This document shows, piece by piece, positions 24,092-40,648 of a stretch of DNA of 41,111 nucleotides. Location of the stretch: contig JAGAMN010000036.1 in the NCBI GenBank assembly GCA_017624715.1, positions 1 to 41,111 on the forward strand, given 5' to 3'. The translations under genes and the position numbers were made by a program. This DNA comes from Oscillospiraceae bacterium (GTDB lineage Bacteria > Bacillota > Clostridia > Oscillospirales > Oscillospiraceae). How positions within the stretch are numbered: position 1 is the first letter of the stretch; each line of letters begins with the position of its first letter. Below the pieces are notes generated by a model. That model worked only from the letters and a program-made list of their open reading frames with translations, searched no databases and had not been told where the DNA came from.

Positions 24092-24248
24092 GGGTTGACC
24101 GCCGCATAAAGTGTTATCTTAATTAAACCTTAATAATGTTGGCGGCGGACAGATGTGTTCACAATGTAGACGATTGCCGATAATCCCAGACCCAAACCGC
24201 GTTCCTTCCGCGTTTACACGCAAGGAAAGACACTATGTACAATCAATA

Positions 24249-24282
24249 GCACACCCCCTCGGAAATATCCGAGGGGGTGTGC
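24249..24282. terminator. Hairpin at the end of the sipW operon
   Basis: GCACACCCCCTCGGA and TCCGAGGGGGTGTGC form a perfect 15-bp stem around AATA. It lies 24 bases beyond the stop of the last minus-strand operon gene. The minus-strand tail is only moderately U-rich, so termination is likely but not certain. Confidence 0.65.
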
Positions 24283-24305
24283 CGTTGGAGGGGGGTGTGG
24301 GATTT

Positions 24306-24956
24306 TTATGCTGCTTGATCCTCGGACTTGCGCCTGAAGAACACCAGCAGAATAAACAAGGCTGCAAAGCTGCCCACCATCAGGCCGGTAACAAAAACAG
24401 GATCCATGTCGGTGCCGGTCTGGGGAGGCCTGGGATCGTCGGGTTCTACGGGGAGTTCTTCAACCTTGAAGCTCCAGTCGATGTAACCAATTTGATCCTG
24501 GAATTCGTTGCCCATGGTGAGGGGTACATCTAAAGTGATATCCAGAGTGATCTTGCCACCGGAATATACCGTGCCCAGGTAGACCCAATCGGTCAGTTGG
24601 GCAGTCTCGTTGGCAGGCGCGGCGAAGAGAATGGAGTCACCGTCCTGTTTGACGGTCAACGTCATCTGGCTCAGCAGAGCCTCAGAGCCCTCCTGAGCAC
24701 CCTCAGAGCGCATATAGAGCTTAATCTTCACATTGTGAGCAAGATTGTTGTCGATCACGATCTGCTCTGTGAGGGAATCTCCGGGCATCACGTTGCGAAA
24801 ATTTGTAAACAGGTCGGTGGGGTTCTCGTCGTCGCCAGGGGCAAAAATGAATTTTCGCGCGGTGCCGTCATAGGTGACGGAGCCGGCGGCAAAGGCGGTG
24901 GCGCTGAAGGTTAGGATCAGCACTGCAATCAGCAGTAGAGAAAACACACGTTTCAT
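24306..24956 (-). CDS. Cell-wall-anchored surface protein with PPQTG motif
   Basis: A 216-residue exported protein. A classical signal peptide ends A-F-A-A, an Ig-like/beta-rich body covers about 25-165 ([15 protein letters not shown]), followed by a Pro-rich stalk, a sortase-like motif P-P-Q-T-G (177-181), a hydrophobic segment and R-R-K-S-E at the end. This is LPXTG-like with Pro in the first position, a variant known in Clostridia, though no sortase gene is in the window. It is last in the sipW operon, 12 bases after the fifth SipW-type protein. It is a candidate wall anchor for the fibres the operon may build. Confidence 0.8.
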
Positions 24957-24968
24957 AACCGCACCTCC

Positions 24969-25496
24969 TTAGTTGTTGCCCCAGGCATCCAAAATAGCCT
25001 GCAGACCGCTGTCACTGGTGACACCCTCGGCCTGAATGGCCTCTGCCACCACTTCCACGCTGAGGCGATAGCCGTCAGGGGGCGCAACATTCAGGGTGAT
25101 GGCAGTAATCAGGTCATTGGTGTTCTGATCGGGAGCAACGGGACGGGTGTAGTACAAATAGCCGTCATCCATAACTGTCCAATCGGTTTCGTTCACGCTC
25201 AGCGTAACATCTGCGCCGGTGGGCGCAATACCCCGGACATTGCCATTTCCGTCCATCCAGTTGATGACGATGGTAGCCCGGATGAAGGCATTGATGTTGC
25301 CGGTGTTGGTCACATCGAATATGTCCCCATCCCGGTTGACACGGCAGGTAACATAGGCGTCTTCAAACTGATTATTCACAGGGTCGGTGCGAGTCATCAT
25401 GTAGGCAAGGGTGCCGCCCACGGTAAGGGAGAGAACCAGGATGACACTCAGTGCGATCGCCCAGATCTTCAGGCGCTTATTGAGGGATTTACGCAT
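24969..25496 (-). CDS. SipW-type signal exported protein (fifth)
   Basis: A 175-residue protein with the SipW/TasA-type export region: a basic N-terminus, a hydrophobic core, then V-G-G-T-L-A-Y-M-M-T and N-N-Q-F. The mature beta-rich part has D-V-T-N-T-G-N-I-N-A-F-I-R and ends with A-E-A-I-Q-A-E-G-V followed by an Ala/Trp-containing tail, the motif shared with its four relatives upstream. The start overlaps the adhesin gene by eight bases, so translation is coupled. It is more divergent from the first three relatives and may be a minor or adaptor subunit for the adhesin; that is inference. Confidence 0.82.
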   Translation of the reverse strand: MRKSLNKRLKIWAIALSVILVLSLTVGGTLAYMMTRTDPVNNQFEDAYVTCRVNRDGDIFDVTNTGNINAFIRATIVINWMDGNGNVRGIAPTGADVTLSVNETDWTVMDDGYLYYTRPVAPDQNTNDLITAITLNVAPPDGYRLSVEVVAEAIQAEGVTSDSGLQAILDAWGNN

Positions 25497-28400
25497 CCTT
25501 CGTTACCTCCTTCAGGAAAAGTAAGTAGTCAGAACCGCTGAGCCATTTTTCGTTTTCAACCTCACCGAAAGTAAAGGTCAGGGTCTGGTCGCCGTTGTTG
25601 AGGTTGGCAGACTGACTTGAGACAGCATCCTGCCGCCAGCTCCAGTCGTTCTGCTCGGTGACGGTGTATACACCGGCGGGCAGGTCGCGGACGGTGACGT
25701 GCTTGTTGCCGTGGATGGCAACGTTCAGGGTAACGCCATTATCTCCCGCGATAACGAATAGATAGGTTTGGTTGGCATCGGCACCGCTGGCATAGATGGT
25801 CAGGTCGGCATCGTTGCGCTCAAACTGCGCGGTGTAGGTGCCGGAAGTCCACATTTCCGCCTCGGTCTTGGTCAACTGCAGCACCGGGTTAGTGGAAACC
25901 AGAACGCCATCTTTGTACCAACCCACGAAATGGAAGCCTTCGGCAGCGGTGGCAATGACATTTTCGAAAGCGCCGCTCCAGACCTTGAGGGACTGGGTAA
26001 TCAATGCCAAAGGTGTGCCGTTTTCGCCCAGCTGGACGGTACCGCCGCCAACGATGTTGACATTCAGAGTGATGGTGGCTTCATTTTCTACGAACTTTGC
26101 GTAGTAGGTGGTGCCATCCACCCATCTTTCGCCGGGCATTGTGGGTATCCAGTTGGCGGAGCTGCTCAGCTTGTTGCCGTTTGCATCGTACCAGCCTTCA
26201 AACGCATAGCCTGCGGGAATGGTCAGAATACTGCTGCCGGTGGCTCTGCCGGTAAGGATGGAAACGCTTTCAGAAGTCTTGCTCAGTGTGGCTGTGCCCT
26301 TTGCGTTGTCGGGCATAATCACACCGTAGTGGATGTTCACCTTGACCTCTTCGAACTTTGCGTAGTATGTGGTGGCGGTGTAGACACCGTCCTTGGCAGG
26401 AACGAAGGTGGCGCTGGTGGAAACCAGATGGGCATCATCGCAGGCAAAGTTGGAGTACCAGCCCTTGAACACATAGTAGGTGTTGGCAGTGGCGGTAGAA
26501 CCCTTGGCCTGGCCGCTGATCGCCTTGACGCTTTCACTGCCGGAGCTGACCGTACCACCACCGCCTGCACCAACCTGGTAACGGATGGTCACCTGATTTT
26601 CTTCGTAGTAGAAGGTGCGGATGTTGGCGCTGGAGGCCGGGTCTTCCGCTGCAACGGTGATGGACATACTGCCGGCGGAGGTCAGCCGGTAACCAGCAAA
26701 GGATTTTGCCACTTGGTTGATGGTGACACCGTACTTGGCGGTACCGCTGATCCGGGAGTTGGCAAACTCCACTTCTTTTCCGCTGCCGTCACGGTAGACG
26801 AACCGGAACTGGTAGGGGTAGGAATTGCGGGTGTAGTAAAGCTTCAGCACGATACCGGTATCGGGCAGGGTCACGCCGTTGACGGTACCTGTGATGCTAG
26901 GATCGTAAGTAAAGCCGGTAATGCTCAAGGCATTGGCGGTGACCACTGTGCCGATCTTTGCCTTGGTGGTGGGTTCGGTGAAATACAGGGTGTAGCTGGT
27001 GCCGGAGGTATTCTGAATGTAGTGCTCCACTTGAACGGTGGCGTTTTCTTCGTCCTTGGTGAAATAGAAGTAGAACTTATTCAGACTGTCGTCGGCAGAC
27101 AGCGCAAAGGTCTTGCGCATGGCATCGACGGTGTACTTCTTCACATTGATACCCTTTTCCTGCAGGTCAAAGACCAGCGTTGCGCTTCTGCTCTCACCGG
27201 TAACGGTGGGAGCAACCTCTGCGCCGGTTTCCGTATCGATGAAATGCACCTCGTATTTGACCTTTTCTTTCGCGGTGTAAACGAAGGTGTAATTGTTTTG
27301 CGCAGTATTTTGTGCGGTGAAGGTAATGCTGTGGCTGGTGACGTTGGGGAAATAGGTCACATCGGAAGGCGCCAGATTCAGAGCATCGCCTACCTTGGCG
27401 TTGTAGGTTTTGGTGTCACCCACAGAGCCACGGATGGGGGTGGGATCAGCCAGGGTGTTGCCCTGGGTGTCTTTGTAGTAGATATTACCGGTGACAAAGG
27501 TGTCACTGGTCCATTTTGCGTACAGCTCCATATCCTTGTAAACGGGCATGGAGAAGTCGTAGGCCTTTTCCTCACCGTCCTGCTCATAGAACCAGCCGAC
27601 GAAGTTGAAGCCGGCACGGATGGGGTCGGCAACATTGCCGGAGTAGGTGGTGTCGTGGTAGATATCGTAGCTGTTCAGCTTATCGCCGCCCTTGGTCAGG
27701 TAAGTAGTGACCTTGTGCAGCACGGGGACCCACTTGGCGTAGACTGCCAGACCGCCATCGGGCATACGGGTACTGCCCCAGGAAACGGGAACGGTGCAAG
27801 CGGGGTCTAAGTACCAGCCGCCGAAGGCGTAGCCTGCACCGTAGGGGGAAACCATGTCCAAATCCGTTAGGTTATAGCTGCTGGTCAAGACTTCGTTGTA
27901 CTTCATTGTTTTGGTCGTGGCAATTTCACTACCATTAAAGTACGTTAAGTTGAATGTTTTACGGACGTAATAGAAGTTGTTATAGATGCAGCTATCATTT
28001 TTGCCACCCGAAGTCAGTTCATAAGTATCAGCGCCAAAGCTGTCACCGTAGGTAGCCTTAAACAGCTCGTAACCCTGCGGCAAACCGCCAACATAGTCAC
28101 CGCCATAGCCGACATAACTCATCTTGGTAACAAAGGTTGCGCCTTGGACAAAGTATTTGCCGTGTTTGTATGTGCCGGTGCCATCTGTGGTTTCCAGCCA
28201 ATAGGTCATCTGGAAAAGCAGATTCAGAAGCGGGCCACGGTAAAACTCCGTATCACCGCCGGGCATAGAGGTAAAGGTACCAAGCGCGCCGCCATTGGCA
28301 AAGTCAGATCTGCCGGGAAAACCGTCACAATCGCCGGGAATCCATCGATAACCGGCAGCAGTTTGCATTTGCTGATGGATATAGCCAACCTCTTGCTCAT

Positions 28401-30399
28401 ACTTAAAGGTATAGCTGGCATCATTGCCGTTCGGATCCTTTGCCAGAACCCAGTTATCAGGATTGTTCTTAATATGCGCATTTTGACTTTCTGCACAGGC
28501 ACATTTCAAATAGTCCTTTTGTGTTGCGTGGTCGCAGGAAAGGACAGAGGAATAACAGGAACTGCTATGGGTATGCTCGCCACTGGATCCGTTGGGACCG
28601 CCATTTTTCTCTTTGTAGGGACAAGAAGCATAGCCGTGCCAAAGATGCCAGCCACTTACGGAGCAACATTCGTCATGAGAGTGTGTATGCTGAACTTTTC
28701 CGCAAGTGGTGACAGACGTATAACAGCTGGAGCCATGCTTATGCGGACAAACAAACTCCCAATATTTCAGCGTATAAGTATTTCTGCTGAAGTACACATT
28801 GACCACGGTGGAGCCGTCGGCCTGGATTGCCACATTTGTGTCTGCGGTCTTGTAGGTAAAGTGATCATCGTCGCGTCCGGTAAAGGCTTCGTTACGGTAG
28901 TTGTAGCCATTGACCGGGTTGCCGGTCAAGCCTTCCTTGCGGACGCTGCCAACGAAGGTGTAGTCGGGATCATTGGGGTTTTCGTACCAGAAGGCCACCG
29001 TAAAGTAGGTATTGGCCGTGGCCCACTGGGCGGTATAACTGGTATTATAGGCGGGAACGGTGGCAGGCAGGTCATCATGAATCACACCGGTCTGGTCGTA
29101 CAGCCAGCCGGCAAAGGTATAGCCGGTGCGCTGTGGATCGGGAACCACGATGGGCGCGCCGTAACGGGCACACACAGGCTCGGTGCCGTAGCCGCCGTTT
29201 AAGTTTACGGAAACCATGAAGTATTCCCGGTCGTAGTAGATCTTCACCACGGTGGAACCATCGGCTGCCACGGTGATCTGGGAGTCATAGTTCAGGTGGT
29301 CGAAGCCGGTGTAGGTCTTGTGCAGATTGGAGCCCACATAGTCGCCGGTTTTCAGACCGGAAACGGTTTGGGTCTCGTGGAGCTCGTATTCATCCCGGTC
29401 AACATACTGCCAGTAGTGCTCTACAACGAAGTCCACCTCGTCGGGTTCATACTCCACGATGATGGTGACATTGGACTGAATATTGGTGATGTTCTGGGTG
29501 ACCCGGGTCTGGCCGTTCTTGGGAATGTAGCCGGGGATCTCCGGGCAGGGAATGTCCAGAATGTAGTCGCTGCCGGCTGCCAGGTAGGAGGTCCATACCT
29601 GCTCGGTGTCTGCGTACTTAAACAGAACCGTGATGGCATACTGGACGGTGGAGTCCACGGGGCTGACTTCCTCATAGCGAGCGGTCGCCTCTGCCCGGTT
29701 GGAGGGCAGTCGGTAAGATACCGGTGCAGCGGTCATGGTCACGGGGACGGGGTCGCTGATGACCTTTTCGTCGCCGGTGGTAACCACGCAGCGGACGTAG
29801 GTTTTGCCATAGTAGTCCACTACATTGCGCAGCATGGCGCCGGAAATGGGCAGGTCGGAAGCGGTGGCACCGTAGAGGTCGGCCCATTGCAGGCTTGCGT
29901 TGTTATAGCAGATCTGCCACTGGTAGGTGGCGGCGGCGCGGGCGCTCAGCTGAGCGGAAACGGTGATTTTCTCACCCTCGGGCAGGAAAAGACCCTCTTC
30001 CGGGATGGGAGTGCCGTTTTTGTCCACGATGGAAACATTGGGGCCGGGAATCACTTCTTCCAGCAGCTCCAGCTTGGTGCTGTCCACATAGCGGTAAGCT
30101 TTGTATTCTTCCGGCCAGGTATAGCCCTCAGCCGCTTCAATCTCGTACAGGGTTAAGGAGCTGCTGTAAACATGCACACCCACGATCTTCACCTTTTCCG
30201 GCAGAAGACTGCCGTTGACGATGACCTGGGAGGCAGAATTGGTGGGGTCGCTCCACAGGTAGGGGAATTGGGTGGTGAATTTGGCTGTTCGGCCAATGAC
30301 GGAGGGTTCCGTTGCCGTATCTACTGCAAAGACCGATGTGGATACGGAGCTGAATGCCATCAGAAAAGCCAACAGCAGCGACAGTATTCTTTTTTTCAT
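25489..30399 (-). CDS. Giant repeat surface protein (InlB-type repeats, Cys/His-rich insert)
   Basis: A 1636-residue secreted protein with a classical signal peptide (cleavage after S-V-F-A). An Ig-like region follows to about 240. At least six InlB-B-like repeats are recognisable by G-W-x-x-D/N ... Y-x-A-K/Q-W/F, interspersed with MucBP-like strands (V-E-H-Y, T-F-V-Y). Residues 551-642 form an unusual Cys/His-rich insert containing H-K-H-G-S-S-C-Y, H-T-H-S-H-D-E-C-C and H-T-H-S-S-S-C-Y. The C-terminus has a SpaA-like fold (L-P-A-G-V-Y-T-V-T-E-Q) and no LPXTG or membrane anchor. It is probably a large adhesin held by partner proteins of the same operon. Confidence 0.85.
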   Translation of the reverse strand: MKKRILSLLLAFLMAFSSVSTSVFAVDTATEPSVIGRTAKFTTQFPYLWSDPTNSASQVIVNGSLLPEKVKIVGVHVYSSSLTLYEIEAAEGYTWPEEYKAYRYVDSTKLELLEEVIPGPNVSIVDKNGTPIPEEGLFLPEGEKITVSAQLSARAAATYQWQICYNNASLQWADLYGATASDLPISGAMLRNVVDYYGKTYVRCVVTTGDEKVISDPVPVTMTAAPVSYRLPSNRAEATARYEEVSPVDSTVQYAITVLFKYADTEQVWTSYLAAGSDYILDIPCPEIPGYIPKNGQTRVTQNITNIQSNVTIIVEYEPDEVDFVVEHYWQYVDRDEYELHETQTVSGLKTGDYVGSNLHKTYTGFDHLNYDSQITVAADGSTVVKIYYDREYFMVSVNLNGGYGTEPVCARYGAPIVVPDPQRTGYTFAGWLYDQTGVIHDDLPATVPAYNTSYTAQWATANTYFTVAFWYENPNDPDYTFVGSVRKEGLTGNPVNGYNYRNEAFTGRDDDHFTYKTADTNVAIQADGSTVVNVYFSRNTYTLKYWEFVCPHKHGSSCYTSVTTCGKVQHTHSHDECCSVSGWHLWHGYASCPYKEKNGGPNGSSGEHTHSSSCYSSVLSCDHATQKDYLKCACAESQNAHIKNNPDNWVLAKDPNGNDASYTFKYEQEVGYIHQQMQTAAGYRWIPGDCDGFPGRSDFANGGALGTFTSMPGGDTEFYRGPLLNLLFQMTYWLETTDGTGTYKHGKYFVQGATFVTKMSYVGYGGDYVGGLPQGYELFKATYGDSFGADTYELTSGGKNDSCIYNNFYYVRKTFNLTYFNGSEIATTKTMKYNEVLTSSYNLTDLDMVSPYGAGYAFGGWYLDPACTVPVSWGSTRMPDGGLAVYAKWVPVLHKVTTYLTKGGDKLNSYDIYHDTTYSGNVADPIRAGFNFVGWFYEQDGEEKAYDFSMPVYKDMELYAKWTSDTFVTGNIYYKDTQGNTLADPTPIRGSVGDTKTYNAKVGDALNLAPSDVTYFPNVTSHSITFTAQNTAQNNYTFVYTAKEKVKYEVHFIDTETGAEVAPTVTGESRSATLVFDLQEKGINVKKYTVDAMRKTFALSADDSLNKFYFYFTKDEENATVQVEHYIQNTSGTSYTLYFTEPTTKAKIGTVVTANALSITGFTYDPSITGTVNGVTLPDTGIVLKLYYTRNSYPYQFRFVYRDGSGKEVEFANSRISGTAKYGVTINQVAKSFAGYRLTSAGSMSITVAAEDPASSANIRTFYYEENQVTIRYQVGAGGGGTVSSGSESVKAISGQAKGSTATANTYYVFKGWYSNFACDDAHLVSTSATFVPAKDGVYTATTYYAKFEEVKVNIHYGVIMPDNAKGTATLSKTSESVSILTGRATGSSILTIPAGYAFEGWYDANGNKLSSSANWIPTMPGERWVDGTTYYAKFVENEATITLNVNIVGGGTVQLGENGTPLALITQSLKVWSGAFENVIATAAEGFHFVGWYKDGVLVSTNPVLQLTKTEAEMWTSGTYTAQFERNDADLTIYASGADANQTYLFVIAGDNGVTLNVAIHGNKHVTVRDLPAGVYTVTEQNDWSWRQDAVSSQSANLNNGDQTLTFTFGEVENEKWLSGSDYLLFLKEVTKDA

Positions 30400-30417
30400 A
30401 TCGTTGCGTCTCCTTTC

Positions 30418-30993
30418 TTAGGCTTCGGGCCAGCCGGCAGCCTCCAGCACAGTGGTGCCGTTGTTGGCCTGCTGTACCGCCTGGGCGGTGATCTGCAGAA
30501 CCATAGAACATCCTTGGTAATCGTTGCCCATATTGGGACCGGAGAAGGCAATGCTGTCAAACAGGGGCTCGGCAATCTCGCCGAAGCCGATGGCGTTATT
30601 GTAGTACCACCAGCCGTCTACCAGCGTCCAGTTGGTGTCGTCCGGGGTGATGAGAATGATCTGGGCCAATTCCTCGGCGGTCAGAGCTTTTTGCTCGCCG
30701 GAGGCATCGTACACCGTGATCTCGTACTGCAGGCGCACCCAGGCAGATTGCTTGGTGCTCTGAATAGACACAACACGGCTGACGGTGGTGTCCGGCATCA
30801 CCGGTATGGGCTGGTCGGGACAGGGCTGCAGAGCACCGTCCACCAGCTGCTGCTGTACCACAGATACGGCCACGCCGCCGGTGGTGATCACATTCCGGGC
30901 GGTGTCCTCTGCGGTAAAGTAGGCCAGCGTACCTCCGGTGATAATAGACAGGCAGATCAAAAGCGCTGCCACATATAAAATTTTCTTTTTCAT
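30418..30993 (-). CDS. SipW-type signal exported protein (fourth)
   Basis: A 191-residue protein. MKKK plus a hydrophobic core leads to T-G-G-T-L-A-Y-F-T-A, the SipW-type recognition region. The mature part is beta-rich with W-V-R-L-Q-Y-E-I and W-W-Y-Y-N, ending I-T-A-Q-A-V-Q-Q-A-N-N plus a Trp/Ala tail, a diverged form of the A-I-Q-x-E-G motif. The start is taken at the ATG of MKKKIL with GAGAGGA upstream; the in-frame extension to 31071 would run through the intergenic hairpins. It lies between the hairpins and the adhesin gene (18-base gap). It resembles the fifth protein more than the first three. Confidence 0.83.
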   Translation of the reverse strand: MKKKILYVAALLICLSIITGGTLAYFTAEDTARNVITTGGVAVSVVQQQLVDGALQPCPDQPIPVMPDTTVSRVVSIQSTKQSAWVRLQYEITVYDASGEQKALTAEELAQIILITPDDTNWTLVDGWWYYNNAIGFGEIAEPLFDSIAFSGPNMGNDYQGCSMVLQITAQAVQQANNGTTVLEAAGWPEA

Positions 30994-31052
30994 AGGCTTC
31001 GTCCTCTCTGGTTGGGATAAAAACCGTAAAACAGGTCGTAACATGTCAGTTT

Positions 31053-31124
31053 GCGCAGGGCATACAACCATATCCGGAAAAGGTCGGATATCCTTGTATA
31101 CCCTGCGCCCATTTGGGCGCAGGG
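31053..31124 (-). promoter_or_regulatory. Competing intercistronic hairpins
   Basis: Three segments can pair in two exclusive ways. GGGCGCAGGG (31115-31124) pairs perfectly with CCCTGCGCCC (31101-31110) around ATTT. Alternatively the 24-base arm 31085-31108 pairs with 31053-31076 (21 of 24 positions), including GCGCAGGG with CCCTGCGC and ATATCCG with CGGATAT. Neither is followed by a U-run on the minus strand, so mRNA stabilisation or processing after the third SipW-type gene is likelier than simple termination. Confidence 0.6.
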
Positions 31125-31137
31125 TTATTGTGGAAAA

Positions 31138-31860
31138 TTACTTAACGGCCGCGAAAGCAGAGTCGAAAGCGGCGGTAATTGCGCTGTAGCAGTCAGCGAA
31201 GCCGTTGGTCTGGGTGGCATAAGCGGTAACGGTGATGTTCATACCGTTGATCTTAGCCATCTCAGCATTGTCCCATGCAGCGGGGATAGTCAGGGTGTCG
31301 AACAGGACGACCTTTGCGTTGGCAGCCTGGGCAGCCTTCATGAAGATGTACAGAGTCCAGGTGTTGTTAGCCTTGTCGGCATCCTGGTAAATGACGCAGT
31401 CCTCGGTCTCATAAACCATGGACAGACCGTTCCAGCCCTGAACCTGGGTGGAAGCCTTGGCCATCAGACCGCCGCTTGCCAGCTTGGTGATGTCGATATT
31501 GTCGTAGCCGGGCACGCCAATCAGGTCGTAGATATCACCGGTCACGGTGACGATGGCTGCGATGTATGCATCCTCAGAGTCGGCAGCCACGGTGATGGTG
31601 GGATCCTTGGTCACGGTCATGGCGGGGAACAGGTGGTAGCTCTGCAGGGTCTGGGTCTCGTCGGTACGGCTGCCGGTAGCAACCAGGTTGCCGGCTGCGT
31701 CCTTTGCGACGATAGCTTCATCCAGAGAGATGTCTACCTTACCTGCGGTGAAGGTGTTGGTCTGAGCGTCGGTGTCGGTGAAGTAAGCCATGGTGCCGCC
31801 AACAATGGCGATGGCCAGCATAGCCACGCACAGAACCAGAGCGAAAATCTTCTTTTTCAT
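31138..31860 (-). CDS. SipW-type signal exported protein (third; TasA/camelysin-like)
   Basis: A 240-residue protein with the most canonical signal: V-G-G-T-M-A-Y-F-T-D-T-D-A-Q-T-N-T-F-T-A, then V-D-I-S-L-D-E as in TasA/camelysin-type proteins. The mature beta-sandwich region has F-P-A-M-T-V-T-K-D-P-T-I-T-V and ends V-T-A-Y-A-T-Q-T-N-G-F with an Ala-rich helical tail. It is the largest small subunit and sits directly upstream of stabilising hairpins, so it may be the major fibre protein. The ATG at 31860 has AAAGGA upstream; an ATG at 31878 in frame is less well placed. Protease activity as in camelysin is not assumed. Confidence 0.87.
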   Translation of the reverse strand: MKKKIFALVLCVAMLAIAIVGGTMAYFTDTDAQTNTFTAGKVDISLDEAIVAKDAAGNLVATGSRTDETQTLQSYHLFPAMTVTKDPTITVAADSEDAYIAAIVTVTGDIYDLIGVPGYDNIDITKLASGGLMAKASTQVQGWNGLSMVYETEDCVIYQDADKANNTWTLYIFMKAAQAANAKVVLFDTLTIPAAWDNAEMAKINGMNITVTAYATQTNGFADCYSAITAAFDSAFAAVK

Positions 31861-31897
31861 AGTTGTGTGTCCTTTCATATATTAAAATTTAAATTAG

Positions 31898-32485
31898 TTA
31901 ACTAATTTCGTCCCAGGCCAGAGCGGGATCGGTGAAGCCTTCCTTCTGGATGGCGTAGCCGGTGAACTTAAGGCTTGCGGTGGAAGCTTCGGTCATCTTA
32001 TCCAGGGTCAGGGCATCGCTGACAGTAACATAGCCGTTTGCAAAGCCTGTCTTGCCTTCCAGCAGGTAGAAGGACTTGGCGGTGTCAGAAACTTTGACCT
32101 CACGGTAGTATACACCGGCAACACCGGCAAGAGGTTGCCAACCGTCCAGGTTCAGAGTGTAGTCCAGATAATCGCCGGGGTTGTTTTCTTCGACCTTGAA
32201 GAACAGCCAGCAGTCCACGTCGGTAGTGCTCTCAACGGTGAGGACGGGGTCCTTGGCATAAGTTTTGCCGGGGATCAGCTTGTATGTGTTGGCAGTGGCG
32301 GTTCCACCGGTCAGCGGAGTCTCGGTCAGGGAAATCTTGATGTTGCTGGCACTGAAGGTGTTGGTTACGGGGTTGGTGTCGGTCATCAACCAGGCGATGG
32401 TGCCGCCGGCAGCGCAGCCGATCAGCAGGACAACGGCCAGCAGAACAACCACGACCTTCAGGCTGACACTTTTATTTGCTTTCAT
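31898..32485 (-). CDS. SipW-type signal exported protein (second)
   Basis: A 195-residue protein with a basic N-terminus, a long hydrophobic core, A-G-G-T-I-A-W-L-M-T-D-T-N-P-V-T-N-T-F-S and I-K-I-S-L-T-E. The shared body motif L-I-P-G-K-T-Y-A-K-D-P-V-L-T-V matches the equivalent P-G-R-T-I-E-K-N-P-K-I-T-V of the first protein. It ends F-T-G-Y-A-I-Q-K-E-G-F with a W-D-E-I-S tail. AAGGAGG precedes the ATG. It is clearly a paralogue of its neighbours on both sides. Confidence 0.87.
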   Translation of the reverse strand: MKANKSVSLKVVVVLLAVVLLIGCAAGGTIAWLMTDTNPVTNTFSASNIKISLTETPLTGGTATANTYKLIPGKTYAKDPVLTVESTTDVDCWLFFKVEENNPGDYLDYTLNLDGWQPLAGVAGVYYREVKVSDTAKSFYLLEGKTGFANGYVTVSDALTLDKMTEASTASLKFTGYAIQKEGFTDPALAWDEIS

Positions 32486-32512
32486 GTTGTTTTCCTCCTT
32501 TGGAGCAAGATA

Positions 32513-33109
32513 TTAGGGGTTGCTGGTGGGGAACAGAGCGTCAAAAGCGGTGTCGGAGTCCAGACCCTCAGCCTGGATGGCATAAGCGGTGATCACGATG
32601 GTAGCGCCATCGAGAGAAGCCTCGTACTCGGTGATGGTCTCGTTGCACTTGAAGGAGGTGAACACGTCGACCTCATCACCTGCGCTGACAGTGGTGTTGT
32701 AGCGGTAGATGCTGACACCATTCACGTTGGCATCGCCTTCGACGGCAACCCAACCAGTCAGACCATTGATCTTGCCGGCGGTCAGCAGATTGTTCTCAAT
32801 CTTAACGAACAGATAGCACTCTTCGCTGTCAGAGCTGACGGTGATCTTGGGGTTCTTTTCGATGGTACGACCGGGAACCAGCTCAATGTTCTGTAGGTTG
32901 TCAGTAGTACCGGCTTGGTTGCCGGTGAGCTTTTTACCGGTCTCGACATTGATCAGATCTTCGGTCAGGGCGATTTCGACCTTACCGACGGTGAAGGTGT
33001 TGGTAACGGTCTTCTGGGAGGTCAGGTACGCAACGGTACCTGCGATGGTGGCGCCTACCAGCAAAATGGCACACAGGGCCAGCAGCAGGACTTTCTTTGC
33101 AGTTTTCAT
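32513..33109 (-). CDS. SipW-type signal exported protein (first)
   Basis: A 198-residue protein. The signal has A-G-T-V-A-Y-L-T-S then V-T-N-T-F-T-V-G-K-V-E-I-A-L-T-E, the standard SipW-dependent pattern. The body motif is V-P-G-R-T-I-E-K-N-P-K-I-T-V, followed by S-D-S-E-E-C-Y-L-F-V-K-I-E-N. It ends V-I-T-A-Y-A-I-Q-A-E-G-L and a short acidic/aromatic tail. AAAGGA lies before the ATG. It is the first substrate gene after the peptidase (68-base gap). Confidence 0.88.
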   Translation of the reverse strand: MKTAKKVLLLALCAILLVGATIAGTVAYLTSQKTVTNTFTVGKVEIALTEDLINVETGKKLTGNQAGTTDNLQNIELVPGRTIEKNPKITVSSDSEECYLFVKIENNLLTAGKINGLTGWVAVEGDANVNGVSIYRYNTTVSAGDEVDVFTSFKCNETITEYEASLDGATIVITAYAIQAEGLDSDTAFDALFPTSNP

Positions 33110-33177
33110 TTGGGTCTTCCTTTCATTATGTTAATTTTATTGTTTGTATATATAAGCATGCGGTGGCGTGTTTTTTC

Positions 33178-33711
33178 TTAGGATTCTGCAGATTCTTCTT
33201 TCTGCTCCTTTTTCTTCTCGTCCTCGGAGAAAATGTCCGGCAGAAATACCAACAGGATCAAAACTGCACCGGATGCCAGCGCTACATACAGTCCCGGGGG
33301 CTGCTGGATGTAGTTGGATACAAAGCCCAGGTAGGGAATGGAAAATACCGGTTTGCCGATGATGTTCTTGTAATGGACGGAGGTGCCGTCAGGGATGTCG
33401 TTGGCATCGCCCTGGGTGAAGTAGCGCAGGGTATTGGGGTCTTCCTCATCCACCAGAACTTCAATGATCCGGTGCGTGACCACAGTATCCTGGTCCAGCA
33501 TGTAGGTAATGGGATCGCCGACCTTCAATTCCCGGTAGTCCACTTTTTGAACATACACCAGCGATCCTACATGGTAAGTGGGCTCCATACTACCGGACAG
33601 CACCACATAGGGCTGCAGACCCACCAGCCTCACGCCCACCAGCAGAACGGCCAGCAAGACAACCAGACCCACCAGAATGCCGGTGATCACATTACGAATG
33701 GTTTTTAGCAT
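33178..33711 (-). CDS. sipW: SipW-type signal peptidase I
   Basis: A 177-residue membrane peptidase of the archaeal/ER-like S26B branch. The N-terminal membrane helix covers about 9-32. The catalytic Ser41 lies in L-S-G-S-M-E-P-T, and His81 (V-T-H-R-I-I-E-V) takes the place of the Lys of ordinary SPase I. A conserved Q-G-D-A-N-D box follows, then a C-terminal membrane helix (about 141-160) and a Lys/Glu-rich tail. Bacillus SipW processes TasA and TapA; here its likely substrates are the five SipW-type proteins downstream. First gene of the operon, with AAAAGGAGT upstream. Confidence 0.93.
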   Translation of the reverse strand: MLKTIRNVITGILVGLVVLLAVLLVGVRLVGLQPYVVLSGSMEPTYHVGSLVYVQKVDYRELKVGDPITYMLDQDTVVTHRIIEVLVDEEDPNTLRYFTQGDANDIPDGTSVHYKNIIGKPVFSIPYLGFVSNYIQQPPGLYVALASGAVLILLVFLPDIFSEDEKKKEQKEESAES

Positions 33712-33903
33712 ATCTAAAGTTCAAACTCCTTTTAAAGCTGATTAAAAGAAATATAAAATGGTAATAATTGGTAAAACGAGCATAAAAACTATACACAATC
33801 AACAAAATACATATCAACAAAAAGATGTTATTGTTAAAAGGTGACAAAATAAATCATACGATACGGTAAAAAAATAAAAACCCGCAAGGTTTTAGCATCA
33901 GAC

Positions 33904-34403: not shown

Positions 34404-35657
34404 ATGACAAAGGATGAAGCAAGAAAGGTGCTGTGCCTGCCGGAGCGGTACACCCAGGAGGATCTGGAAAGGGCCTACATCGGCCAGCGGGATGCCTACT
34501 ATCCGCCTATGCATGAACTTTTCAGCAAGCACGACGAAGCCTACATCAAAGAGCAGATGCTGGAGCAAATGAGAGACAACAGCTACATTTACCCGGTGGA
34601 GGATATGGAAAAAGGCCCTAACGGCAGGGATAAGGCTCAGTATGCCTTCATACGCTTTGCGGATGTGTGCGATGCTTACCATATTCTGAAGGGCGACAAA
34701 GATTATGTTCCGTATCGGCTGGATGGCGATGATCCGGAGGGCTATTGGTCTGTGCTCCACGGCAAAGCCAATGCCGCCCTGCGCATGAAAGCGGCTGCTT
34801 TGTCCCGGCGTACCCTGTGGTTGCTGATTCCGCTACTGGTGGCTTGGATTGCAACCGTGGGAGTGCAAAGCCTGCTGCCGGGCATGATCGCCACCGCCGT
34901 ATTCATCGCTTTGCATTGGGGCATTCCGTTCTGGCTGACCCCCATGGATTTCCTGTTTTACATCCCCAAGGGCCTGTGGGAAGGCATGAAAGAGGGTGCA
35001 GATCACGGTCTGTGCATCACCAAGCTGTACAGCATCATTTTTTGCAGCTTGGGATTTGTGATCTGGTGGACCGTCAAATTTCTAATCCTGCCCTACAAGA
35101 TCCTGGAAGAGTGGGAACTGGAATTCCAGGACAGAAGGGACTATGTCCGGCGCTGTGAAAAGCTGGTGCCCCTGCATTATGCGCGGACAAAGGAGCAGGT
35201 GGCGGCCTTTGGCAAAGAATACATGGGCAACAAAGTTGAAAAGGCCCGTTCTGCTTACATGACCATCAGTAAATGGAATCCCCAGGCCCGGAGTGAGGCC
35301 CTGGAGGAAGTGGAGGCGCTGGTGAAGAAGCAGAATCCCCAGTATGGCTGCACAATCAGCCAAGCCAAGTCCGACACACGGGACCTGCGCTTCTTCGAAA
35401 ACTATCTCAAAGAGAAAGATGAACGGGCATACAAATTTGCCGAATGGGCTGCATACACTTCATACGACTACGGTAATGTATCGGTTCTTAAGTATGATGA
35501 GGACTTTGCCAACAGTATGCATGAGCGCCACGATGAGAAGGTGAAGCATAGCTACGACTATGTGGACCGGAAGAAGATGCACTACGTCCTGCAGGCAGAG
35601 ATCGCCCGGCAGCGCCAGCTGCTGGAATGCTGCGTGATGCTGCATGATATGATGTAA
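34404..35657 (+). CDS. J-domain-like membrane protein without HPD
   Basis: A 417-residue protein. The N-terminus M-T-K-D-E-A-R-K-V-L-C-L-P-E-R-Y-T-Q-E-D-L and the later A-F-I-R-F-A-D-V-C-D-A-Y-H-I-L resemble helices I-II and III of a DnaJ domain. The H-P-D loop that activates DnaK is absent, with Y-Y-P-P at that place. Two to three membrane segments follow (about 136-172 and 207-230), and a long charged helical C-terminal half is presumably cytosolic. Function is unknown; it could be a degenerate co-chaperone or scaffold. Own promoter and terminator. Confidence 0.72.
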   Translation: MTKDEARKVLCLPERYTQEDLERAYIGQRDAYYPPMHELFSKHDEAYIKEQMLEQMRDNSYIYPVEDMEKGPNGRDKAQYAFIRFADVCDAYHILKGDKDYVPYRLDGDDPEGYWSVLHGKANAALRMKAAALSRRTLWLLIPLLVAWIATVGVQSLLPGMIATAVFIALHWGIPFWLTPMDFLFYIPKGLWEGMKEGADHGLCITKLYSIIFCSLGFVIWWTVKFLILPYKILEEWELEFQDRRDYVRRCEKLVPLHYARTKEQVAAFGKEYMGNKVEKARSAYMTISKWNPQARSEALEEVEALVKKQNPQYGCTISQAKSDTRDLRFFENYLKEKDERAYKFAEWAAYTSYDYGNVSVLKYDEDFANSMHERHDEKVKHSYDYVDRKKMHYVLQAEIARQRQLLECCVMLHDMM

Positions 35658-38854: not shown

Positions 38855-40648
38855 CTATATTATAGCTATCTCAATCTCAAATTGCAACAAAAATGCCGAC
38901 CCGAAGGTCGGCATTTTATTGTTAGAAATTAGCCCTTGATGGCAGCCTGTGGGGCTACTATGTATGGCAGGGGAATTTGCCCCTGCCACCACGATTTTTG
39001 TGGTAGTTTTCCGTTTCCCTTCGGTTTTGCAGCGGAGCGGATCCTCCGGGTCGCCATCGAAGCGTAAATACCAATCGAAGCTGTCTTGGTGTACAACAAT
39101 CTTGGCGACGAAGGCTTCAATCACCGATTCCGGCACGTCCTGACCCTCGTCGGGATGGGTGTATTGCTCCAAGGCATATTGCAGGACGGTCAGTTTCTCT
39201 CTGTAGTCCACCACTTTCTTGGGTTTGCTGACAGCGGTCAGTTTTTCAATCTCCTCCTGTAACTGGTGAATTCTGGGTTCCAGTTCGGCGCATTTGCTGC
39301 GGAACAGTTCTCTGCTGATATCACCTTCTGCTCGCATTTCCACATAGCTATCCAGCTTTTTGCTTAAGTGTGCCAGCTCCGTCCTCTTTGCTTCGATCAA
39401 GGCATCGTTGTTGCTGGATTCTTCCGTGTCATCGATGTGCGCCTCTAAAATGGAATTGGCCAAAGCCAGCACCTTATCTTTATCGGACAGATATTTTCGA
39501 AAGATCAGGTTTGCCGTCATCTGCAGTCTCCATTCCGGGATCATGGGGGAGCGGCAGATGCCGGCCAGAGGCAGGCCTTTCCTTTTGCGGCTTTCATAAG
39601 AGCCGGTCTCAACGGAACTGTAGCACTGGTAAGCATTGCCGTTGTAGCGGTCTGTGCGCTCCCACCGGCGCATATTAAAGGTGCGCCCGCATTCGCAGAT
39701 TAGCAGTTTGCCCCAAATGGTGGTACGAGGTTTCTTGCCTTTCTGATTTCCCCGATTCAGGTATGGCATTTTCCTGGTTTTCGATTCCATGATTCTTTGT
39801 ACCCTTTCATATTCTTCTACGGTGACGATAGGCTCGTGGGTTCCCTGCACTTGAGTGAGTTCAATCTCACCGTGGTTTTTGACTTTCTTTTGCTTCAGAT
39901 AATCCGGGACATATTCCTTGTGATAGGTGATGATGCCACAGTAGAAGGAGTTTTTCAGCACGTGGGAAATAACGGTGGGATACCATTGCGATTTACCCAT
40001 AGCGGTTTTGATACCTCGTATCTCCAGCTCGTCCTTGATCTTTATCAAACCCCAGCCACCCAGGTACAGATCGAAGATCAGCCGGACGGTCTGCGCCTGC
40101 TCTGGATTGATGACCATTTCCTTGCCTACACGGTCGTAGCCAAGGATGTTGCCTGTGCCGTAGATCACACCGTTATTCATAGAGGTCTGCTGACCGCTCT
40201 TGACACGGATCGAAGTCTTGCGGCTTTCGTCCTGAGCCAGGGTGGCCATAATGGTGAGCCGAAGTTCACCATCACCGTCAAAGGTCTTGATACCGTCGTT
40301 GATGAAGTATACCTCAACCCGATGCTCTTTCAGCATACGGGTATACTGCAGGGTATCCACCGTATTTCTGGCGAAACGGGAAACCTCACGGGTGAGGATC
40401 ATATCAAACTTGTGCTTTTTGGCATCGTCGATCATCCGCATAAATTCCGGTCGCTTTTCTGCAGAGGTGCCGGTAATGCCTTCGTCGATATACTGCTCCA
40501 CCAGCGTCCATTCCGGATGCAAATCCAGCAGTGGTTTGTACCAATCAATCTGGTTCTCCAGCGCAGAAAGCTGGGCATCGTGATCTGTGGATACACGGGC
40601 ATAGATCACGACCCGTCGTTTTAAATGCTCTCTTTCATATGGCATCAT
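38855..40648 (-). CDS. Large serine recombinase, 3' end probably frameshifted
   Basis: A 597-residue site-specific recombinase. The resolvase domain has V-V-I-Y-A-R-V-S20-T-D with the catalytic serine, R-E-V-S-R-F-A-R-N and E-S-R-K-T-S. A recombinase domain follows with N-I-L-G-Y-D-R and A-M-G-K-S-Q-W-Y, a zinc ribbon (C-E-C-G-R-T-F ... C-R-S-P) near 320-370, and a long coiled coil around 425-480. The last ~25 codons read through a hairpin terminator (38889-38917). In the other frame the same DNA reads P-Q-A-A-I-K-G-stop at 38929, the tail found at two nearby sites. A frameshift near 38975-39000 is therefore likely; the catalytic part is intact. It starts within the stop of the small gene upstream. 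Confidence 0.9.
   Translation of the reverse strand: MMPYEREHLKRRVVIYARVSTDHDAQLSALENQIDWYKPLLDLHPEWTLVEQYIDEGITGTSAEKRPEFMRMIDDAKKHKFDMILTREVSRFARNTVDTLQYTRMLKEHRVEVYFINDGIKTFDGDGELRLTIMATLAQDESRKTSIRVKSGQQTSMNNGVIYGTGNILGYDRVGKEMVINPEQAQTVRLIFDLYLGGWGLIKIKDELEIRGIKTAMGKSQWYPTVISHVLKNSFYCGIITYHKEYVPDYLKQKKVKNHGEIELTQVQGTHEPIVTVEEYERVQRIMESKTRKMPYLNRGNQKGKKPRTTIWGKLLICECGRTFNMRRWERTDRYNGNAYQCYSSVETGSYESRKRKGLPLAGICRSPMIPEWRLQMTANLIFRKYLSDKDKVLALANSILEAHIDDTEESSNNDALIEAKRTELAHLSKKLDSYVEMRAEGDISRELFRSKCAELEPRIHQLQEEIEKLTAVSKPKKVVDYREKLTVLQYALEQYTHPDEGQDVPESVIEAFVAKIVVHQDSFDWYLRFDGDPEDPLRCKTEGKRKTTTKIVVAGANSPAIHSSPTGCHQGLISNNKMPTFGSAFLLQFEIEIAII
38889..38977 (-). repeat. Gene-end module C inside the recombinase 3' end
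   Basis: Minus-strand reading I-P-L-P-Y-I-V-A-P-Q-A-A-I-K-G then TAA (38931-38929), then the hairpin AAAATGCCGACC-TTCG-GGTCGGCATTTTT. An adjacent 8-bp inverted repeat, GGCAGGGG and CCCCTGCC, lies at about 38967-38988. Third copy of the tail seen in modules A and B. Confidence 0.65.

Follow-up and report, generated by a model that had tools for sequence, protein, structure and literature searches.

An eight-gene SipW operon of Oscillospiraceae: a candidate strand-linked surface fibre with a socket for exchangeable cargo

Introduction

What might a bacterium do with an operon that sets one very large secreted protein among five small substrates of a SipW-type signal peptidase, and ends in a protein with a wall-sorting motif? 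The question is raised by an eight-gene cluster in a stretch of 41,111 nt from an Oscillospiraceae bacterium (contig JAGAMN010000036.1; the whole stretch is called the window here). All eight genes lie on the minus strand, from 33711 down to 24306, in the order SipW, s1, s2, s3, s4, a 1636-residue protein (hereafter the cargo), s5 and a 216-residue protein with a PPQTG motif. An earlier note on this DNA had described a tight operon for a multi-subunit fibre, with a repeat adhesin as its functional part and a wall tie; the strand and coordinates of the eight genes are confirmed from the sequence, as is the tight same-strand spacing (gaps of at most 68 bp), and only its placing of five small genes ahead of the adhesin falls, since four precede it and s5 follows.

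We lean towards reading the operon as encoding a wall-anchored, strand-linked surface fibre of the TasA/camelysin/BsaA type that offers a socket to a single large cargo protein. SipW would cleave the signal peptides off s1–s5 and free N-terminal segments of the pattern aromatic-hydrophobic-x7/8-Asn-x-hydrophobic, which would serve as donor strands: as in TasA fibres, each would fill out the beta-sandwich of the subunit next to it. The cargo, exported by the ordinary route, would dock through a C-terminal tail, of the same register in most relatives, in the groove of a subunit, s5 being the likeliest, while the cargo head (InlB-type repeats in the window) would set what the fibre binds or does. 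The PPQTG protein, which lacks a SipW signal, would be a unit of TasA fold joined by one face to s5, and a sortase (plausibly this genome's class B enzyme) would link it to the wall. The simplest chain would then be cargo (donor only), s5 (donor and groove) and PPQTG protein (groove, wall), with s1–s4 forming or lengthening the shaft. This exact polarity is also our preference, held less firmly than the fibre itself.

Conservation of the gene order

Conservation of the gene order in relatives was the check set beforehand, and it came out in favour of the earlier note. Of 44 PPQTG-family loci taken from 394 genomes of the order, 41 have a gene of the s5 or s4 type immediately ahead of the PPQTG gene, and the identical eight-gene order recurs in a genome of the same genus (L036). 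With a profile of the PPQTG protein, 55 loci were found in named species genomes; by their record titles these come mostly from metagenome-assembled genomes of Oscillospiraceae and other Clostridia, many of them from goat, sheep, deer, buffalo or chicken. The set compared further, again of 55 loci, includes the window and leaves out L107, where no PPQTG gene was called. These loci show two operon types. Type I runs from SipW through three to five small proteins to a large protein, s5 and the PPQTG protein, and type II has an extra small protein after the PPQTG gene and large proteins that, where seen, carry SipW signals of their own; 25 loci are type I with cargo, 28 are type II and 2 are unassigned. 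Complete type I loci number 16 of the 55, many others ending at contig ends. The same order in L036 and these complete loci therefore make the cluster more than a chance assembly. In another same-genus genome the two types stand side by side on one contig and strand (L040 and L041).

The arrangement is not universal. One locus (L038) has cargo and s5 with no PPQTG gene found, and the type I operon of L040 ends at s5. At E 1e-3 the PPQTG profile matches 55 of the 394 genomes of the order, 42 of them at about 1e-11 or better, and across the phylum it matches 11 of 398 at E 1e-8, the window's own genome being included each time; the A3 profile matches 71 of the 394, s4-like proteins included, against the 42 with PPQTG. 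No title on this locus was found in the literature searched, a search that did not extend to bioRxiv and most subscription journals.

An exchangeable cargo slot

The cargo (25489..30399, minus strand) has an ordinary signal peptide by eye and InlB-type repeats (Flg_new 83.5 bits, Flg_new_2 42.9 bits); it has no wall-sorting motif of its own. Its relatives suggest that it is not a fixed part. The last 150 residues of the large proteins from the 25 type I loci form one single-linkage BLAST cluster, and the remaining parts of 24 of them (that of L103 is an 80-residue fragment only) split into four groups. Among these 24 heads Pfam recognises VWA in 7, Flg_new repeats in 7, and GH20, a PMP repeat and SHIRT in 1 each, the SHIRT match lying under its cut-off in one of the scans. 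The shared part is a prealbumin-like domain that ends in a conserved tail; in the window this putative docking domain occupies approximately 25546..25806 (own match E 3.6e-33) and the tail, WLSGSDYLLFLKE, occupies 25507..25545, both on the minus strand. The slot is thus an exchangeable one, defined by a common C-terminal domain, and the large protein of the window is only one of its many occupants, which sharpens the earlier picture of the adhesin as the functional part into one of replaceable cargo.

Two side observations concern cargo proteins. The window's own has a Cys/His-rich stretch, CPHKHGSSCY to SQNAHIK (28468-28749, minus strand, about residues 551-644), which looks in the translation like a metal-binding insertion. 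The cargo of Candidatus Woodwardibium gallinarum (L055:5214-9350) starts with a GH20 hexosaminidase domain (8e-17), and this head appears enzyme-like rather than adhesin-like.

Does the slot imply docking, or could the large protein be secreted alongside the fibre? The operon might be a biofilm-matrix operon of the BsaA/TasA kind, with s1–s5 as fibres or layers and the large protein as a matrix component secreted under shared regulation and without docking by its tail, any likeness of the tail being convergent or due to a common export factor. Two of the small proteins resemble the BsaA family below its 60-bit cut-off (s4 35.6, s5 37.4 bits), and BsaA of Clostridium perfringens is reported to polymerise without BsaB, BsaC or the adjoining sortase (PMC7395162, in the part cited). 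Two order-wide patterns argue the other way. Of 48 matches to the cargo domain that extend into the tail, 38 have an s5 gene immediately downstream, as against none of the 15 that stop short of the tail, the profile having been made from s5-linked proteins, so that distant matches may stop early for that reason. Furthermore, the large proteins examined have either of two devices and never both: type I proteins have the C-terminal domain (24 of 24) and type II proteins an N-terminal SipW signal (24 of 24), a count that covers only large proteins with one device, up to a fixed distance from the PPQTG gene, and takes no account of proteins with neither, and a split that also follows lineage, as the operon types themselves do. 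At one type I locus, L098, a second operon encodes a large protein with a SipW signal, which falls outside the counted stretch. On balance we regard the matrix reading as unlikely.

Register of the putative donor segments

How would such varied heads be held by one fibre? The mature N-termini of the small proteins offer a possible answer. In all five of the window an Asn lies 9 or 10 residues past the first mature aromatic residue: at +9 in s1 (YLTSQKTVTNTF, 32993..33028), s3 (YFTDTDAQTNTF, 31750..31785) and s4 (YFTAEDTARNVI, 30886..30921), and at +10 in s2 (WLMTDTNPVTNTF, 32354..32392) and s5 (YMMTRTDPVNNQF, 25365..25403), these minus-strand segments being putative donors on the basis of register statistics and, for s5, of the monomer model. 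Across 184 small proteins the Asn stands at +9 in 115 and at +10 in 65 (180/184), usually with a hydrophobic residue two past it. The spacing goes with the position in the operon (s4 +9 in 17/18, s5 +10 in 22/25, the type II protein before PPQTG +9 in 26/27), these counts being inherited inside clades and thus not independent. Donor-strand contacts of TasA are described as involving F29, I32 and F39 (PMC9674648, in the part cited); F29 and F39 are 10 apart, the same distance as between the hydrophobic positions +1 and +11 of the +9 variant.

Most cargo tails follow the same spacing. A W anchor is present in 60 of 65 cargo C-termini, 46 of them non-redundant, and the Asn lies at +9 or +10 from it in 40 of the 46 (5.1 expected by composition), which, the tails being mutually homologous, amounts to one family-to-family resemblance and not to 40 independent ones; 33 of the 40 have a hydrophobic residue two past the Asn. 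The usual tail pattern, W-L-x7/8-N-x-F, is the register of the subunits' mature N-termini, and we therefore read the tail as a C-terminal donor strand that would dock the cargo on a TasA-type fibre. When a matrix built solely from N-terminal segments having the Asn was run over 25 cargo proteins, its best score fell within the last 55 residues in 13 (2.1 expected), and 200 column-permuted matrices reached at most 9; among the 13 are five close relatives, the L103 fragment, and L097, which scores outside the W tail. The predicted monomer of s5 (pLDDT 92.1) has no strand over residues 36-50, its first strand beginning at 51, as expected of a free donor segment. The donor-strand reading thus draws on sequence register and on this unpaired segment.

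Some results limit it. The tail of the window itself is atypical: it and that of L105, both among the six exceptions, keep W-[LM]-x-G (W-L-x-G in the window) and lack the Asn typical of relatives, which limits the claim and counts in favour of the matrix alternative. The s5 model found no match when compared with TasA structures. A rule tying the spacing of the tail to that of the neighbouring subunit was tried and abandoned, as the tails are mostly +9 and s5 mostly +10 (15/20 tabulated loci), with no match between them; s4, unlike s5, is mostly +9 as are the cargo tails.

The PPQTG protein and the polarity of the chain

If the cargo docks at one end, what holds the other? The PPQTG protein (24306..24956, minus strand) has an ordinary signal peptide by eye, the sorting motif and a C-terminal hydrophobic helix, which in the predicted model spans residues 186-215, and it has a charged end. 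It has no Pfam match and no family reached its cut-off; the LPXTG model scores 15.1, just below 15.9, and a crude pattern finds PPxTG or PPxTN in 21 of 48 relatives. The best PDB match of the model in Foldseek is the TasA fibre, with PapA (E 1.3e-3) and FimG (E 3.3e-3) also among the matches. The protein is a remote relative of s4, and nature offers examples of a PPQTG-type domain fused to one of the s type. The wall tie of the earlier note becomes in this light a protein with a TasA-like predicted fold and remote s4 kinship, and not a generic anchor. Searches of PDB sequences with profiles of the PPQTG, s5 and s4 families returned no credible relative.

A classical sortase-assembled pilus of the SpaA type would also fit one protein with a C-terminal sorting motif, the VWA or SpaA-like domains of some cargo, and the class C sortases found elsewhere in the genome. 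Such pili are hard to reconcile with subunits of which none, by eye, carries a sorting motif, with one class C sortase query that matched nothing in the 55 loci, and with class C genes in this genome that adjoin frames ending in an LPxTG motif of their own. We reject this candidate as highly improbable.

Another alternative is the opposite polarity, in which the PPQTG protein would be a TapA-like initiator donating its own N-terminal segment, the cargo being held by some other contact. Its mature N-terminus aligns with the s4 donor segment in a profile alignment; its residues 20-30 are modelled with a confidence under 50, as a free donor strand might be; and in Bacillus subtilis TapA is thought to give the first donor strand (PMC9674648, PMC10151520, as far as the cited parts go). 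A linear chain, however, could presumably not close between two donor-only ends if the cargo tail is a donor as well, and the fold that the PPQTG model matches is that of TasA itself, which has a groove. We hold this polarity to be rather doubtful.

A further alternative shortens the structure. Cargo, s5 and PPQTG protein might form a short wall-display complex, with s1–s4, though encoded in the same operon, polymerising separately. Cargo with s5 and s5 with PPQTG are the neighbour pairs kept most constantly at the locus, the fusions noted above point in the same direction, and donor and groove counts would balance for three parts. Yet the cargo gene lies inside the subunit series, an s4-type gene stands directly before it in most complete type I loci, and TasA and BsaA are described as fibres or filamentous polymers (PMC9674648, PMC7395162, in the parts cited). 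We consider the short complex somewhat improbable, and keep the fibre with its cargo socket as the preferred reading.

The small subunits

The genes of s1 (32513..33109, 198 residues), s2 (31898..32485, 195 residues), s3 (31138..31878, 246 residues), s4 (30418..31071, with a possible alternative start at Met27, 30993; alignment A4) and s5 (24969..25496, 175 residues) are all on the minus strand. The SipW-type signal model TIGR04088 is passed by s1 (34.5 bits), s3 (41.8) and s4 (31.6), s5 scoring 14.4 against a cut-off of 19 and s2 going unreported; a signal model of our own detects all five, having been trained on such proteins with the window included, which makes this partly circular. PF12389 (camelysin/TasA, cut-off 22.5) is passed by s3 (36.8) and s4 (28.1), with s1 (16.7) and s5 (13.0) below and no match for s2, and its matches span only about 50 N-terminal residues. 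None reaches the cut-off of the BsaA model TIGR04090, for which s3 (25.3) and s1 (16.4) score lower still than s4 and s5. For s2 no curated family among the Pfam and NCBIfam models reached its cut-off.

In a tree of 172 small proteins, made by a quick method with the SH-like approximate likelihood ratio test (SH-aLRT) as its only support and without proteins longer than 300 residues or cut at contig ends, three positions each form one side of a branch: the type I proteins before PPQTG, that is, s5 (26/26, SH-aLRT 99), the type II proteins before PPQTG (26/26) and those after it (28/28). The position before the cargo requires 5 label changes, the first after SipW 4 and the second 7 (shuffled means 16.5, 15.5 and 15.5), and the third 7 against 9.8; s1 accordingly clusters with other first-position proteins and s2 mostly with second-position ones, and s3 groups strongly with one relative only. 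Because several operon positions are single clades, the paralogues are old, specialised subunits; for s5, s4, s1 and s2 the tree argues against recent tandem duplication as their source. The proposal that distinct small subunits are kept together with a large protein as the functional part and another as the wall anchor is borne out by these position clades and by the conserved order.

Transcription signals and neighbouring genes

The intergenic gaps, starting at sipW, are 68, 27, 19, 66, 18, -8 and 12 bp, the cargo and s5 genes overlapping by 8 bp. As a promoter-like site precedes sipW (33788..33817) and a terminator-like hairpin of 16 pairs directly follows the PPQTG gene (24248..24283), both on the minus strand and both pattern matches only, a single transcript of all eight genes is likely; such patterns show little excess region-wide (promoters 10 against 8.2 in shuffles, terminators 15 against 10.2). 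An Rfam scan of the window at gathering thresholds found no RNA element, and regulation is therefore not explained by any known riboswitch.

The SipW-type peptidase (33178..33711, minus strand, 177 residues) scores 109.1 bits with TIGR02228 (cut-off 51.85, passed), 107.2 with the Bacillus SipW model NF046067 (cut-off 190) and 30.6 with Pfam Peptidase_S26; besides these scores, it owes its name to the SipW-type substrates adjoining its gene. Relatives occur in 28 of 60 genomes, its own included. A second, distant SipW-like gene of the window's genome (377 residues) matches much more weakly (E 8.7e-11), and two genes of about 370 residues come after it (all within L053:5685-9089).

Upstream of sipW and divergent from it lies a gene for a 417-residue protein (34404-35657) with no NCBIfam match at E 0.001. 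Close to the window end is a 597-residue frame (38855-40648) with the N-terminus YARVSTDHDA, which we take to be serine-recombinase-like. At L033:12700-14930, downstream of the operon, repeated short frames with FQSTLPVRGAT suggest a clustered regularly interspaced short palindromic repeat (CRISPR) array.

Significance and comparison with known systems

A more general proposal may be entertained, tentatively: that gut Clostridia possess a TasA-class pilus built for modular display, into which exchangeable heads such as InlB-type proteins, VWA proteins or a glycosidase plug by a C-terminal donor strand copying the N-terminal donor strands of the pilins, with a TasA-fold sorting-motif protein anchoring the other end; the register of the pilins at each position (Asn at +9 or +10) would then amount to an assembly code. 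If this were true, Gram-positive gut bacteria would have their own counterpart of the chaperone-usher pilus, non-covalent and strand-linked, with base, adaptor and head positions. Several poorly annotated families across the order (the PPQTG-type anchor, the cargo C-terminal domain and the s5 type) would gain a testable role, sequence would predict which large proteins such fibres display, and the tail would provide a natural C-terminal docking tag. Neither a socket for cargo whose C-terminal tail is donor-like nor a TasA-fold base bearing a sorting motif appears in the cited parts of the fibre literature.

How does the operon relate to systems already described? The Bacillus archetype of one peptidase, one TasA and one TapA, from which the earlier note started, is too narrow, considering the TasA, CalY and CapP of Bacillus cereus (PMC13082335) and the sipW-bsaABCRSD operon of C. 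perfringens (PMC7395162), as presented in the cited parts. With tapA-sipW-tasA of B. subtilis the window shares a SipW peptidase, camelysin-type subunits (s3 and s4 pass PF12389), an N-terminal segment in donor-strand position (the F29/F39 spacing; PMC9674648, likewise in part) and the TasA-like predicted fold of the anchor; it differs in its five position-kept subunits, in the large cargo, which is exchangeable and in most relatives has a donor-like tail, and in the sorting motif borne by its base, and no TapA-like protein was recognised in the window. The bsa operon is similar in its SipW and BsaA-type protein, which s4 and s5 resemble by TIGR04090. In the account cited (PMC7395162) a putative sortase gene, srtB, adjoins it, less polymer is seen in bsaB and bsaC mutants, and BsaA polymers form without sortase; the window, by contrast, stays below the family cut-off and has no two-component pair among its eight genes. 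The B. cereus locus likewise combines more than one camelysin-type subunit with an accessory wall-located protein (PMC13082335, PMC10151520), although it is described as sortase-independent and the cited parts mention no cargo slot.

Beyond these relatives the likeness is one of logic. Chaperone-usher pili and the F-ENA spore fibres are also linked by strands or hooks and have a dedicated anchor and a separate tip, the F-ENA anchor offering a docking cleft and a separate protein forming the tip (PMC11952670, in the part cited). Unlike the window proteins, with which no sequence kinship has been shown, both use other secretion routes, and F-ENA relies on N-terminal hooks, its anchor and tip proteins being collagen-like (same source and extent). 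For chaperone-usher pili there is, in addition, the presence of PapA and FimG among the structural matches of the PPQTG model.
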